IMG/VR virus record: IMGVR_UViG_3300028735_000394
Coordinates: 1-23,713 of that record
Length of the DNA: 23,713 bases
Strand: one strand, 5' to 3'
From: a virus
Within the stretch, counting starts at the first letter, position 1, and every line of letters begins with the position of its first letter. A program made the position numbers and the translations under genes. The notes under the pieces were generated by a model that did no database searches, was not told the origin of the DNA, and was given only the letters and a program-made list of their open reading frames with translations. Positions 6,192 through 15,566 of this stretch are shown piece by piece.

Positions 6192-6242
6192 TGAACGCTT
6201 TCGCGCTTTGCCGCGTTCTCCCAGCCCGCTACGATAGCGGGC
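6192..6242 (+). promoter_or_regulatory. Late promoter copy 1 (Plys position)
   Basis: TGAACGCTTTC at 6192-6202, then exactly 28 bases, then ACGATAGCGGGC at 6231-6242 ending on the lysozyme ATG. The same layout occurs at 14469-14519. GAACGC (6193-6198) and GCGTTC (6213-6218) form a dyad with centres 20 bp apart, a plausible site for a Mor/C-type dimer. TACGAT at 6230-6235 is a fair -10, with TTGCCG (6208-6213) as a weak -35. A hairpin, GCCCGCTA (6224-6231)/TAGCGGGC (6235-6242), abuts the start codon. The promoter role is inferred from the duplicate and from its position after the activator gene. Confidence 0.7.
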
Positions 6243-6731
6243 ATGAATCGCCTACCCGCTACCCTGATGGTCGTCTCCGCCCTGGCAGTGGCCGGGGTGG
6301 CTGTGCGCGAGGGCTATCGCGCGCGTGCGTATAACGACGGCGTGGGCGTGCAGACCGTTGGATTTGGCAGCACGCGCCATCCGGACGGCACGCCGGTCAA
6401 AGCGGGCGACCAAGTGAGCCCGGAGCGCGCAGTGGTGATGCTGGCCAAGGACGCCGACCGCATCTGGCGCGAGGCGGCGCGCTGCATTGGCGATGTGCCG
6501 CTCGCCCAGCACGAGGTCGATGCGTATGCGAGCCTTGCCTACAATATTGGCTCGGGCGCCTTCTGCCGCTCGACCCTGGTCAAGAAGCTCAAGCAAAGCC
6601 CCCCCGACTACGAGGGCGCGTGCCGCGAAATCCTGCGCTGGAACCGCGCCGGTGGGCAGGTGCTGCCCGGGCTGACCAAGCGCCGCGAGGCCGAGTACCG
6701 CCTGTGCATGGGTCAAGAGGAGAGTCGATGA
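6243..6731 (+). CDS. Signal-anchor (SAR) endolysin, GH24 lysozyme
   Basis: Muramidase that cuts peptidoglycan at lysis. The 162-residue product has an N-terminal weakly hydrophobic segment (about 4-21, LPATLMVVSALAVAGVAV) typical of signal-anchor-release lysozymes, then the T4-type triad E23, D32 and T38 with E-x8-D-x5-T spacing (REGYRARAYNDGVGVQTVGFG). A SAR endolysin is exported by the host Sec system and held inactive in the membrane until depolarisation. The ATG directly abuts the late promoter and no Shine-Dalgarno sequence is present, so a leaderless message is likely. The stop overlaps the ATG of a micropeptide gene. Confidence 0.92.
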   Translation: MNRLPATLMVVSALAVAGVAVREGYRARAYNDGVGVQTVGFGSTRHPDGTPVKAGDQVSPERAVVMLAKDADRIWREAARCIGDVPLAQHEVDAYASLAYNIGSGAFCRSTLVKKLKQSPPDYEGACREILRWNRAGGQVLPGLTKRREAEYRLCMGQEESR

Positions 6732-11762: not shown

Positions 11763-13062
11763 CCCGCAGCTTGCCTTCATCTTCCGCCGCCCGTTCGCCG
11801 AGCAGGTGGCGTTCTTCCGCGGCAAGCTCGGCAACCTGGTGCCCACCGCGCGCTGGGACGACATCTGGAAGTCCGCCCACGACCGCGCCTTCATGGTCGC
11901 CGGTGCCGCCAAGGCCGATCTATTGGCCGATCTGGCCGCCGCGGTGGATAAGGCCATCAGCGAGGGCGAGACGCTGGACGAGTTCAGGAAGCGCTTTTCC
12001 GCCATCGTCGAAAAGCACGGCTGGCACGGCTGGACGGGCGAGACGACGGCGGCAGGCCGCGCCTGGCGCACGCGCATCATCTATCAGACGAATCTTTCCA
12101 CCAGCTACGCCGCCGGGCGGCTTGCGCAGCTCAGGGACGCCGGGTTTGAATATTGGGTTTATCGCCACACCCCGAACGAACACCCGCGCCTACAACACCT
12201 GGCCTGGGACGGCCTGACCTTGCCCGCCGATCATCCCTTCTGGCAGACGCACTATCCGCCCTCGGGCTGGGGCTGCCGGTGCCGCGTGGTCGGGGCCGAC
12301 GGACCAGAGTCGGCGAAGCTCTTAGGAGGCAAGCCCGACTACAACCAGCCGCCAGCCGGGTGGGACGAAATCGACCCCAAGACCGGCGAGCCTCCAGGCA
12401 TCGACAAGGGGTGGGGGTATATGCCGGGGGGAACATCCGATCTGGTGCAGGAGATCGAGCGCAAGGCGGACAAGCTGCCGCCGCTGCTGGGAGATGCGCT
12501 GAAAGAGGATGTCGCGTCACGCTTCCGGACTAAGCTGGCGAAAGCGTTCGATGACGTTGTATCGAGAGCAAAGGCAGACGGGACGATGATAGAGTACGCG
12601 GCCCTTCTAGACGAATCAGGAAATCAACTCTGGATCAAGCGCGGGGGCGACAGCTATGTGGAGTTCACCTCGGAAGGAGTACAGCAAATGAAAGGGGCGA
12701 TACTTGTGCACAATCACCCCGGCGGTAGGTCGTTGTCGCTTGAAGACATGAAGCTGGCCGGTACTCAAGGCATGCGGCGCATCTACGCCGTCAGTAACGA
12801 CCGCAGCCACATCTATGCCGCGACAGTCAGGGAGCGCAGCGTCGATAGGCTGATTGATAGATACGCGAAGTATGACGCCGAGGTGTATGAAGCATTCATA
12901 AAGAAAATTGATATGGGGGAAATTACGCCGTCAGAGGCTGAGAATTGGCATCATCACGTGATGAATGCGATCGCATCCAGAGATGGCCTTGTCAGCTATC
13001 GCGTCATTGGTAACGTTCCGAAGTGGGTCAAGGAGGTCATCCGTGAGCTACGTCCTGATTGA
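11740..13062 (+). CDS. F: MuF-type minor head protein (gp30) with a C-terminal JAB-like extension
   Basis: A 440-residue protein. Residues about 1-190 are the MuF/SPP1 gp7 head-morphogenesis domain: FRRPFAEQVAFFRGKL, then WRTRIIYQTNLSTSYAAGRL (from 108), ending at the conserved HYPPSGWGCRCRV (C179, C181). It acts inside the capsid near the portal. From about residue 250 the sequence changes to a separate domain with LVHNHPGGRSLSLED (H324, H326, S333, D336) and a candidate E285. This resembles the JAMM/RadC-type metal-binding pattern, although one spacing is a residue short. The coding G+C falls to about 45% in parts of this domain (12841-12960), against about 65% around it, so the domain was probably acquired. 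ATG 11740 is inside the preceding gene. Confidence 0.88.
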   Translation: MPQPAAADPQLAFIFRRPFAEQVAFFRGKLGNLVPTARWDDIWKSAHDRAFMVAGAAKADLLADLAAAVDKAISEGETLDEFRKRFSAIVEKHGWHGWTGETTAAGRAWRTRIIYQTNLSTSYAAGRLAQLRDAGFEYWVYRHTPNEHPRLQHLAWDGLTLPADHPFWQTHYPPSGWGCRCRVVGADGPESAKLLGGKPDYNQPPAGWDEIDPKTGEPPGIDKGWGYMPGGTSDLVQEIERKADKLPPLLGDALKEDVASRFRTKLAKAFDDVVSRAKADGTMIEYAALLDESGNQLWIKRGGDSYVEFTSEGVQQMKGAILVHNHPGGRSLSLEDMKLAGTQGMRRIYAVSNDRSHIYAATVRERSVDRLIDRYAKYDAEVYEAFIKKIDMGEITPSEAENWHHHVMNAIASRDGLVSYRVIGNVPKWVKEVIRELRPD

Positions 13063-13222
13063 TCATGGTCTGACACCGTTTTCTCCCATCGATGAGATCG
13101 AGGCGTGGATAGAGCGCGTCAAGCGAATGATCGAGGAGCGCCCGAACAACGACGAGCTGCGAGAGGCATTGCAGGAACTTGAGCGCTTGCGCGGCGTGGT
13201 GAAGGGACAGGAACCCGACTGA
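13043..13222 (+). CDS. Small acidic protein downstream of the MuF extension (possible partner)
   Basis: A 59-residue product from GTG 13043 with a perfect AAGGAGG site 6 bases upstream; it overlaps the MuF gene by 20 bases. It is a mainly helical, acidic protein (IDEIEAWIERVKRMIEERP, ELREALQELERL). It is not a core Mu gene and shares the lower G+C of the MuF extension, so the two may have moved together. By analogy with MuF polymorphic toxins it could be a cognate inhibitor or chaperone of the extension; this is inference only. Confidence 0.68.
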   Translation: MSYVLIDHGLTPFSPIDEIEAWIERVKRMIEERPNNDELREALQELERLRGVVKGQEPD

Positions 13223-13707
13223 TGATCCGCATTGAAGTCGACGACCGCGAAGTGCGCCAGGCGATGGAAAACCTGCGCCGTCGTGTTTCGAACATGATAC
13301 CAGCCATGCACACCATCGGCCAGGGTTTGACGGAAGGCAGCCGGGAGCGCATCCTCTTGGGCCGCGACTGGACGGGCCAACCCTTCGCGCCCAACAGCCC
13401 GGCCACGCTCGCCCGCAAGAAGGGCAACAAGCCCCTCATCAACGAAAAAACCTTCGTCACCAGTCGCCTGCACTACGAAGCCAGCGCCGACAGCGTGATT
13501 GTTGGATCAAGCGCCAAGCAGGCCGCCGTGTTGCAGTTCGGTGCAAAGAAGGGGGCCTTTGGCGCGACCCGGCGCGGGGCCAAGATACCCTGGGGCGACA
13601 TTCCCGCTCGCCGCTACCTGCCCATCCGGGAGGACGGCCAGCTCGACGACGCGGCCCGCTCCCTGATCCTGGAGTCCATCCGCGCGTATCTGGCGGATGG
13701 CACATGA
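13222..13707 (+). CDS. G: Virion morphogenesis / tail completion protein (Mu gpG-like)
   Basis: A 161-residue product of the phage virion morphogenesis family (Mu gpG, P2 gpS): an N-terminal strand-helix IRIEVDDREVRQAMENLRRR, then LGRDWTGQPFAPNSPATLARKK, then LHYEASADSVIVGSS, AAVLQFGAKK and the conserved IPARRYLPI near the C terminus. It is thought to act in head-tail joining. It starts in a TGATG overlap and ends in an ATGA overlap. Its G+C is closer to the core genes than to its neighbours on both sides. Confidence 0.9.
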   Translation: MIRIEVDDREVRQAMENLRRRVSNMIPAMHTIGQGLTEGSRERILLGRDWTGQPFAPNSPATLARKKGNKPLINEKTFVTSRLHYEASADSVIVGSSAKQAAVLQFGAKKGAFGATRRGAKIPWGDIPARRYLPIREDGQLDDAARSLILESIRAYLADGT

Positions 13708-13997
13708 AAGCGATCGTATACCCAATCATCACCGGCGATGACTGGTGTTCTCCAGCCACACCGATACCGCTGGAGCGTGACTCAAAAGCCGCGGCTATCC
13801 GCGCACTTCGCGAGAGCGGCTACCGCATCATGTGGAGCGGCGGAGAGCACGCGGTCTTGACGACGACGGCAGAAGAGCTGCGGTATTCTCGGGCTGACAC
13901 CCCAGATGTGATGGAGCGCGAGCGCGCTCTTGGCTATCAGCTGCCAGACGATGCTGAGATCACGAAATATCTCATCACCGTCTGGCCGAATCGATAA
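13704..13997 (+). CDS. Orphan protein of unknown function
   Basis: A 97-residue product in ATGA overlap with gpG. It looks like a small alpha/beta protein (MKAIVYPIITGDDW..., then DSKAAAIRALRESGYRIMWSGGEHAVLTTTAEEL...). I do not recognise it and there is no counterpart at this place in Mu. G+C is lower than in the head genes. It may be accessory cargo of the late operon. Confidence 0.65.
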   Translation: MKAIVYPIITGDDWCSPATPIPLERDSKAAAIRALRESGYRIMWSGGEHAVLTTTAEELRYSRADTPDVMERERALGYQLPDDAEITKYLITVWPNR

Positions 13998-14012
13998 GCC
14001 GAAGGAGTTCCC

Positions 14013-14114
14013 ATGAAGAACGAAGGGCAGCACACCGCTGCCAACAGCGCCCGAGCGCCGGCGCGTGGAGAAGGTGCTCGGGCTGCCCGCCGAGGCTTTG
14101 GTGGTGCGCTATGA
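14013..14114 (+). pseudogene. Probable small gene with a one-base frameshift
   Basis: An ATG at 14013 has a strong AAGGAG site, but its frame gives only a 33-residue Arg/Ala/Gly-rich peptide with poor codon bias. The frame one base ahead reads GSTPLPTAPERRRVEKVLGL... to YDA-stop (TGA 14118-14120) with nearly all codons ending in G or C. That frame has no start; a stop (14014-14016) lies just upstream. Removing one A from the AAGAACGAAGG stretch (14016-14026) would join the ATG to it. It is either a true frameshift, a sequencing error or a recoding site. The ATG-frame stop overlaps the next gene by ATGA. Confidence 0.5.
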
Positions 14115-14317
14115 CGCCTGATCGCTTCGCAGCCGTCGCTCGCCTCATCCGCATGCGCGGCGGGCAGTCACAAGAGGCCGCCAGGCTCGTCCTGGTCGAT
14201 GGCATGCACCCCATCGATGCAGCCCGGAAGACCGGGCTGTCTTCTCAGGCAGTCTGCAACGCGGTCGCCCGCGTGCGGAGGGTGGACGACCTTTTGGCCA
14301 AGTCGGTCAAAAGCTGA
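14111..14317 (+). CDS. KorA/TrfB-like DNA-binding protein
   Basis: A 68-residue product matching the TrfB/KorA DNA-binding fold. An N-terminal helix MTPDRFAAVARLI is followed by SQEAARLVLVDGMHPIDAARKTGLSSQAVCNAVARVRRV, where VLVDG, a helix-turn-helix (about 33-56) and the V.RV end are typical of KorA-type plasmid repressors. It lacks the KorA C-terminal dimerisation region. A regulator of this kind between gpG and the protease gene is unusual for Mu-like phages. It starts in ATGA overlap and is followed within two bases by a terminator, so it is the last gene of its block. Confidence 0.75.
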   Translation: MTPDRFAAVARLIRMRGGQSQEAARLVLVDGMHPIDAARKTGLSSQAVCNAVARVRRVDDLLAKSVKS

Positions 14318-14318
14318 T

Positions 14319-14349
14319 GCGCCAAAATCGCCCTCTGGCGCGTTTTTTT
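14319..14349 (+). terminator. Rho-independent terminator
   Basis: GCGCCA (14319-14324) pairs with TGGCGC (14336-14341) around an 11-base loop, followed by G and seven T (14343-14349). It starts right after the KorA-like stop codon. It ends the transcription block that begins at the lysozyme promoter; head protease and capsid genes lie beyond it under their own promoter copy. Confidence 0.85.
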
Positions 14350-14468
14350 GCCTGCGCAGCTACCCTACCCTATCCCAACGCGCAAAAGGGCCTAGGCAAC
14401 GGCGGGCAACGGCTTTACGGGCGGGTTTTGGTTGGCTGGATTGCCGCCACTGGTCCAATCGCCATGGC
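14350..14468. other. Non-coding gap after the terminator, with a tandem 9-bp repeat
   Basis: No gene is supported between the terminator and late promoter copy 2. The gap holds GGCAACGGC twice at 14395-14403 and 14405-14413 (10-bp period, one helical turn), and a run of TACCC/TATCCC pyrimidine repeats (about 14361-14376). A weak promoter-like pair TTGCCT (14348-14353) and TATCCC (14371-14376) with a 17-bp spacer can be drawn but is not convincing. The repeats could be a protein-binding site. Confidence 0.4.
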
Positions 14469-14519
14469 TGAACGCTTTCTGACTGCCGGATTTGGCGTAC
14501 ATGGCCGACGATGGCGGCC
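14469..14519 (+). promoter_or_regulatory. Late promoter copy 2 (PI position)
   Basis: TGAACGCTTTC at 14469-14479, then exactly 28 bases, then ACGATGGCGGCC at 14508-14519, ending on ATG 14520. The first block is identical to copy 1 (11/11), the second matches 10/12, and the 28-bp spacers are unrelated in sequence. There is no -35-like element and no Shine-Dalgarno site. An inverted repeat ATGGCC (14501-14506)/GGCCAT (14516-14521) lies over the -10 region, as a different one does in copy 1. The second dyad arm of copy 1 (GCGTTC) is not conserved here. The position equals Mu PI, before the protease gene. Confidence 0.7.
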
Positions 14520-15566
14520 ATGCGTACCCAGCACATCAGCCGAGTCTCTGCCCACGGCGCCACCCAGGCGCTGGGGCTTGCGCGCCACGCCATCTCCCTG
14601 CCCTTGTCTCCCGCCGACGCCGACGAGGCGTCTTTCACCCCGCCGGAGTGGGTTCATCTCATCCCGGCAGGGACTTTCTCCGGCCGCGACGGGCGCGGGC
14701 CTTATACGCTGGATGCTCAGGCCGTGCTGGCTGCATTCGCAGCCAATGGGGCGGATTTACCCATCGACTATGACCACCAGAGCCTGACTGCCGAGGAAAA
14801 GTCCGGGCCTGTCCCAGCGGCCGGCTGGATCAAGGAGCTACAGGCCCGCGAGGACGGCATCTGGGCGCGGGTGGAGTGGACGCCACGCGCCGCCGAGCTG
14901 CTGGCGAACAAGGAATACCGCTACCTCTCGCCCGTTTTTCGCTACCAGGCAAAGACGGGCCGCGTCGTAGCGCTGACTGGCGCGGGACTGACTCACAACC
15001 CCAATCTCTATTTGCAAGCCACTGCCTCACGAAAGGAGAGCCACGCCGTGGATGAACTGCTCGAACGCCTAATCTATATGCTCAACCTGCCGGTGACGGC
15101 CACGCCCGAAGAGGTGGCCGCCGAGCTGCAAAAGCTCATTGACCGGCTGAAAACCGCCGAAGCCGCAGCCGCCCAGGCGGCCGAAGAACTCGCCGCCGCG
15201 CAGTCGCGCGAGCCCAACCCGGCGGAATTCGTGCCGGTGGCCCTGCACAAGCAGGTGGCCGACCAGCTCGCCGCGCTTCAAGCAGAGCTCGCCCGCCGCG
15301 AGGCCGAGGCTGCGATGGAAGCCGCCATGAGCGCGCGCAAGGTCTCGCCGGGGATGCGCGAATGGGCGCTGGCTTATGCCAGCCGCGACCTCGAAGGCTT
15401 CAAAGCCTTCGTCGCCGCCGCGCCCGAGATCGTGCCCGAGGGCGCACATCGTCGCACCGAATCCGTGCACGGTGCGATCCTCACCGACGAAGACCGCCTC
15501 GCCGCCAAGCTGCTCGGCATGAGCGAAGAGGCATTTGCCCAAGCCAAGCAATTCATAAAGGAGTAA
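14520..15566 (+). CDS. I: Head maturation protease with C-terminal scaffold (Mu gpI-like)
   Basis: A 348-residue product from ATG 14520. This start is chosen over ATG 14511 because it sits exactly where the lysozyme ATG sits relative to the duplicated promoter. Residues about 20-170 are the Mu-like I protease: FTPPEWVHLIPAG, LPIDYDHQSL, GPVPAAGWIKEL, YRYLSPVF and ALTGAGLTHNPNL. The C-terminal half is coiled coil and Ala/Glu-rich (LKTAEAAAAQAAEELAAAQ), the scaffold part, and ends KQFIKE. The protease cleaves scaffold and itself during prohead maturation. The length is close to Mu gpI (361). Confidence 0.9.
   Translation: MRTQHISRVSAHGATQALGLARHAISLPLSPADADEASFTPPEWVHLIPAGTFSGRDGRGPYTLDAQAVLAAFAANGADLPIDYDHQSLTAEEKSGPVPAAGWIKELQAREDGIWARVEWTPRAAELLANKEYRYLSPVFRYQAKTGRVVALTGAGLTHNPNLYLQATASRKESHAVDELLERLIYMLNLPVTATPEEVAAELQKLIDRLKTAEAAAAQAAEELAAAQSREPNPAEFVPVALHKQVADQLAALQAELARREAEAAMEAAMSARKVSPGMREWALAYASRDLEGFKAFVAAAPEIVPEGAHRRTESVHGAILTDEDRLAAKLLGMSEEAFAQAKQFIKE
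15048..15566 (+). CDS. Z: Internal-start scaffold protein (Mu gpZ-like)
   Basis: Inside the protease gene, AAAGGAG at 15032-15038 is followed 9 bases later by an in-frame GTG at 15048. Translation from there gives a 172-residue protein (VDELLERLIYMLNLP...) made only of the coiled-coil scaffold part. Mu makes its scaffold Z from within gene I in the same way, and lambda makes Nu3 from within C. The site lies exactly between protease domain and coiled coil, which supports real use. Confidence 0.72.
   Translation: MDELLERLIYMLNLPVTATPEEVAAELQKLIDRLKTAEAAAAQAAEELAAAQSREPNPAEFVPVALHKQVADQLAALQAELARREAEAAMEAAMSARKVSPGMREWALAYASRDLEGFKAFVAAAPEIVPEGAHRRTESVHGAILTDEDRLAAKLLGMSEEAFAQAKQFIKE

Follow-up and report, generated by a model that had tools for sequence, protein, structure and literature searches.

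The window analysed here is a 23,713-nucleotide stretch of viral DNA (positions 1 to 23,713 of IMG/VR record IMGVR_UViG_3300028735_000394), and it represents a phage of the Mu type whose head genes are of the D3112/DMS3 type; its major head protein shares 63% identity with the DMS3 protein. Between the Mu gpG-like gene and the head protease (identified by a phrog_328 match in a PHROG search) lies a variable slot, and the features in and around this slot are listed in Table 1. An ORF beginning with ATG encodes a protein of 68 residues (MTPDRFAAVARLIRMRGGQSQEAARLVLVDGMHPIDAARKTGLSSQAVCNAVARVRRVDDLLAKSVKS), in which the VLVDG motif and the helix-turn-helix (HTH) described in the original prediction are both present. 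Upstream of it are a gene for a 97-aa protein, whose start codon overlaps the gpG stop codon (ATGA), and a small ORF of 33 aa. The 68-aa gene is indeed the last one before a terminator, as a stem and a T-run follow it directly; this stem was missed by a strict terminator scan because its loop is longer than 8 nt.

Table 1. Features of the gpG-protease slot and its borders in the window
Feature	Position	Strand	Basis
Gene for a Mu gpG-like protein (tail completion/neck), bordering the variable slot on the left	13222..13707	+	Pfam Phage_tail_S, E 1.4e-19; phrog_26
97-aa protein of no known family; anti-CRISPR or other anti-defence candidate	13704..13997	+	homologues in L011, L103, L082
33-aa ORF with a good ribosome site (AAGGAG) upstream; its stop and the 68-aa start overlap in ATGA	14013..14114	+	sequence; alignment with L011
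68-aa KORA-type HTH protein, probable Aca4-family (anti-CRISPR-associated) regulator	14111..14317	+	Pfam KORA; KorA fold; AcrIF11-linked relatives
Terminator-like stem (GCGCCA...TGGCGC) and T-run, right border of the slot	14318..14347	+	sequence; also in relatives with an empty slot
Two tandem GGCAACGGC repeats (at 14395 and 14405)	14395..14413	+	kept in relatives without the 68-aa gene
Block resembling a late promoter, TGAACGCTTTC ... CGACGATGGCGGCC, ahead of the head protease	14469..14519	+	similar block at 6192-6242

The 68-aa protein matches the Pfam KORA model over residues 1–55 (E 8.2e-6; 26.4 bits, which is 0.3 bits under the gathering score of 26.7), and the same model is matched by 10 of 11 aligned family members, with a best E of 1.1e-8. 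The structure predicted by AlphaFold2 with the help of 10 relatives reaches a mean pLDDT of 95.7, and it aligns with residues 5–71 of KorA (2w7n) at a Z of 9.6 and 1.9 Å with 28% identity, while Z reaches 10.0 against FocB and 8.5 against ArdK of plasmid R388. Since the protein ends at the equivalent of KorA residue 71, the C-terminal dimerisation domain of KorA is missing, in agreement with the prediction. The proposed KorA/TrfB relationship therefore stands for the HTH domain, by profile and by fold, but the reading as a plasmid-type regulator does not, because the closest relatives are of the Aca4 type and come from phages.

Compared with KorA/TrfB of IncP plasmids, the window protein shares the fold of the HTH domain over 67 residues, but it is phage-borne and contains that domain without the dimerisation domain. 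The operator core of RP4 KorA (TTTAGCTAAA) was not found in the window with up to one mismatch. ArdK is likewise a KORA-type HTH protein, but it possesses a dimerisation domain, and the sites that it uses are direct repeats at -35.

About 25 relatives of the 68-aa protein were found in searches of viral contigs and genomes, and those in the aligned set are 44–79% identical. The nearest ones found are phage proteins, not plasmid KorA, and a search of annotated phage records gave no relative at E up to 1. In three related loci (L088, L089 and L095), the gene directly upstream of the 68-aa homologue encodes AcrIF11. The L089 product matches PDB 6kyf (E 7.7e-54) and the NCBIfam AcrIF11 model (5e-32), the L095 product matches the same model at 3.5e-40, both of them above the cut-off, and the upstream gene of L088 is nearly identical to that of L089 as judged by eye. 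The homologues in L088 and L089 are 56–57% identical to the window protein overall (65–67% over the best 57 residues), and that in L095 is more distant (44% overall, 49% in the best segment).

Aca4 has been described as a 67-aa protein with the Pfam KORA domain, the closest structure being TrfB 2W7N, and with AcrIF11 as its neighbour (PMC9410906; PMC6739104); the published reference is WP_071533911 from Pseudomonas (PMC9410906). The window protein resembles it in size (67–68 aa), in its KORA match, in the TrfB-like HTH, in being the last gene of a short operon, and in having relatives at 44–57% overall identity that follow AcrIF11. We conclude that the 68-aa protein very probably belongs to the Aca4 family, to which it is linked through genomic neighbourhood and the published domain description. 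The window copy differs from Aca4 in that it follows the 97-aa gene, lies in a Mu-like late region and has no palindromic operator in a promoter. What is described here is an Aca4-family regulator that sits in a new locus, has unusually lost its own operator and is accompanied by a new candidate anti-defence gene.

Family members were also seen after an acidic 62-aa ORF in L002 (2809-3219) and L102, where the phage operon is unrelated and lacks the palindromic operator, and this ORF is a candidate for another accessory gene.

The slot was compared among phages related to the window by their protease (53–92% identity), and its content is highly variable. In L012, L013 and L015 the slot is empty, and the terminator lies directly 3' of the gpG stop codon. 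The close relative L004 (899-3766) carries ABC-3C-type proteins in the slot (CTD10, E 2.8e-15; DUF2326, E 2.8e-28), and L005 (1660-3737) carries a C5-cytosine methyltransferase gene followed by one for a DUF4928 protein, which are likely a restriction-modification pair. The slot genes of L023 (400-3889; contig IMGVR_UViG_3300031950_000009) resemble csf1, csf2 and csf3 of type IV CRISPR with weak but consistent matches (E 1e-5, 7e-7 and 9e-12, all under the equivalog cut-offs), and a CysH-like gene comes after them (PAPS_reduct, E 2.4e-19); this arrangement resembles a type IV-B-like effector set within the head operon of a Mu-like phage. Because related phages carry defence systems there, the slot is a useful place to seek genes of both attack and defence.

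In DMS3, the same gpG-protease slot holds gene 30, whose annotation is type I-E anti-CRISPR, and gene 31, which encodes a small HTH protein and which we take to be aca1. The two phages are alike in having, at this position, a small gene and then one for a small HTH protein; however, Aca1 represents another HTH family, and there is a gap before the acr gene in DMS3 and none before the 97-aa gene in the window. An Aca4-type gene is now placed in the Mu-like phage slot in which DMS3 keeps acr-aca1. The description of Aca1 comes from JBD30, a close relative of DMS3 (PMC9410906).

Three homologues of the 97-aa protein were found in the viral collection. In L011, the homologue is 77% identical and is followed by a 68-aa homologue, the two genes overlapping in ATGA; in L103, it is 40% identical and is also followed by a 68-aa homologue. 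In L082, a 69% identical homologue stands alone in the early region without an HTH gene, as the first gene after an early-type promoter. Pfam, NCBIfam and PADLOC gave no match to the 97-aa protein and PHROGs none worth trusting, and searches of phages, plasmids, PDB sequences and 369 genomes of one class gave chance matches only. Its structure model is confident (pLDDT 90.7), and fold searches with Foldseek and VIA returned nothing significant (best Foldseek E of 0.16 in PDB and 0.03 among viral models; best Z of 5.2). Weak Nudix-like rows in these searches were discarded, as no structural match was significant. No known anti-CRISPR was matched by sequence or by fold.

Aca genes are a standard marker for new anti-CRISPRs, and Aca4 served in this way to find further type I-C anti-CRISPRs (PMC7913775). 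Because the gene that comes after it belongs to the Aca4 family, the 97-aa gene is a good candidate to encode a novel inhibitor of bacterial immunity. Its small size, narrow distribution, Aca-type neighbour and position in a defence/anti-defence slot together make the product a candidate anti-CRISPR or other anti-defence protein. It is quite likely some anti-defence or host-directed accessory protein, and a strict anti-CRISPR function is a tentative proposal which we put somewhat below even chances. In one published set of aca-linked candidates a minority were active, with six type I-C inhibitors and AcrIE9 among 27 tested (PMC7913775). A specific anti-defence candidate can now be named, with 97 aa, a confident model and no known fold.

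In the relatives, the promoter of the cassette is TTGACATACACnCTTAAGnGTGTATTAT, and it contains a palindromic operator. For example, the promoter of the L011 pair is TTGACA-16-TATTAT, in which the spacer is the palindrome ATACACgcTTAAagGTGTAT. Closely similar promoter-operators precede AcrIF11 in L088 and L089 as well as the operons of L101, L105 and L110, and there is a weaker one in L095; in L101, the family gene also lies in the gpG-protease slot, but the gene upstream of it is another one. An operator matrix, built from the three AcrIF11 promoters only, was applied to 18 other family genes, and upstream of 10 of them (L011, L101, L090, L091, L092, L100, L104, L105, L109 and L110) its score exceeds 14 bits, against 95% levels of 8–13 bits in Markov nulls. 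The recognition helices of the window and L011 proteins are nearly identical, so the window protein probably reads an operator of the L011 type. In reporter tests, representatives of all ten Aca families studied repressed their own promoters (PMC9410906). In relatives of the L011 type, the cassette is under its own strong sigma-70 promoter, from which the upstream protein would be made in a burst on entry of the phage DNA into the cell. Binding of the HTH protein to the palindrome ATACACnCTTAAGnGTGTAT, located between the -35 and -10 elements, would then shut the operon off.

The operator motif can be used for finding further anti-defence operons. In a scan of viral contigs, three of seven matches were known family loci, and the others, inside genes or before unrelated genes, were rejected. 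The same palindrome was also noticed in a promoter of L125, TTGACAATACACCCTTAAAGGTGTATAATAT (around 5444, reverse complement), which is followed by an unrelated HTH gene and has no recognised family member near it.

A recurrent leader lies just after the promoter in several loci, and it consists of the hairpin GnCAGCAnGGTGCTGnC and, in most of them, CGCGCCCCGGGGAGTCAGGG. It was seen at L011:3248-3308, L101:2612-2672, L104:2648-2720 and L082:3940-3994, and also in L116, L117 and L120. It precedes differing accessory genes, with or without an Aca4-type operator, and may possibly be a control element at the RNA level; an Rfam search with the L011 leader returned no family.

Alignment with L011 shows that the whole block of promoter, operator and leader is missing from the window. 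Neither operator nor leader was found in the window with up to three mismatches, the operator matrix gave nothing above chance, and no sigma-70-like promoter was found in 13000-15000. Autoregulation of the window copy is thus unsupported, and with promoter, operator and leader gone, the 97-aa and 68-aa genes are most likely transcribed with the late operon. Between these two genes, the window contains a segment of about 113 bp, including the 33-aa ORF, which is absent from L011. Neither this ORF nor the alternative frame across it has a homologue in our searches. The other frame at 14013-14121 holds a gene-like peptide end (LPTAPERRRVEKVLGLPAEALVVRYDA), and one frame shift would join it with the 33-aa ORF.

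The missing operator, leader and sigma-70 promoter, together with the extra segment, would also fit a decaying remnant, in which the promoter was lost, a segment was inserted and neither gene is functional now. However, both frames are intact, and their divergence from L011 is mainly synonymous, which points to purifying selection on the 97-aa gene (dN 0.17, dS 1.08, dN/dS 0.16) and marks the 68-aa ORF as a real gene (dN 0.16, dS 0.53, dN/dS 0.30). The start/stop codon overlaps also preserve translational coupling, which is kept at the 68-aa gene because the stop codon of the 33-aa ORF overlaps its start. We consider decay unlikely.

The explanation that we find likely is that the 68-aa protein acts as a repressor of the Aca4 family and that 13704-14317 is an altered cassette of the acr-aca type, located in the cargo slot of a DMS3-like Mu-type phage. 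The 97-aa protein would most likely inhibit a host defence, possibly CRISPR-Cas. Since the contig contains no operator of the known type, the HTH protein of the window would be limited to such promoters in co-resident phages or to a site that is not recognised as an operator. A further-reaching version, in which the 97-aa protein is the first of a new anti-CRISPR or anti-defence family and its operator-less Aca4-like partner silences the palindrome-bearing anti-defence operons of competing phages in trans, is speculative and rather unlikely to hold in full.

The overlapping two-gene operon of L011, with the anatomy of an autorepressor, could also be read as a toxin-antitoxin pair, in which the 97-aa protein is the toxin and the HTH protein is both antitoxin and autorepressor, and Aca and antitoxin HTH proteins are known to be alike (PMC9410906). 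However, the 97-aa gene occurs without any HTH gene in L082, and its product matches no toxin family or fold, which makes this pairing very unlikely beside an altered acr-aca-type cassette.

The original prediction had placed a second copy of the late promoter after the gene, with tandem 9-bp repeats in the gap upstream of this promoter, and had suggested that the 68-aa protein might tune it. The repeats and the late-promoter-like element are present in the gap before the protease, the latter recurring near 6192. The terminator, the two GGCAACGGC-type repeats and the TGAACGCTTTC element are common to the window, L011 and seven relatives without the 68-aa gene (L004, L005, L008, L012, L013, L014 and L015), so the repeats belong to the border of the slot and not to the regulator, and the paired loss of gene and repeats that such control would lead one to expect is not seen. 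Tuning of the late promoter through these repeats was a reasonable idea, because the KorA relative ArdK can bind direct repeats (PMC9723621), the 68-aa protein has the KORA fold and the repeats sit between its gene and the promoter, but it is rejected on the distribution among relatives and is highly improbable, as the operator of this family is an inverted repeat that lies in the promoter of the gene itself and the best operator-matrix score in the region of the second late promoter is 2.0.

As for the protease itself, the distance from TGAACGCTTTC to the ATG at 14520 is 51 nt, which matches the spacing at 6192-6243, so that translation probably starts at this ATG, not at 14511.
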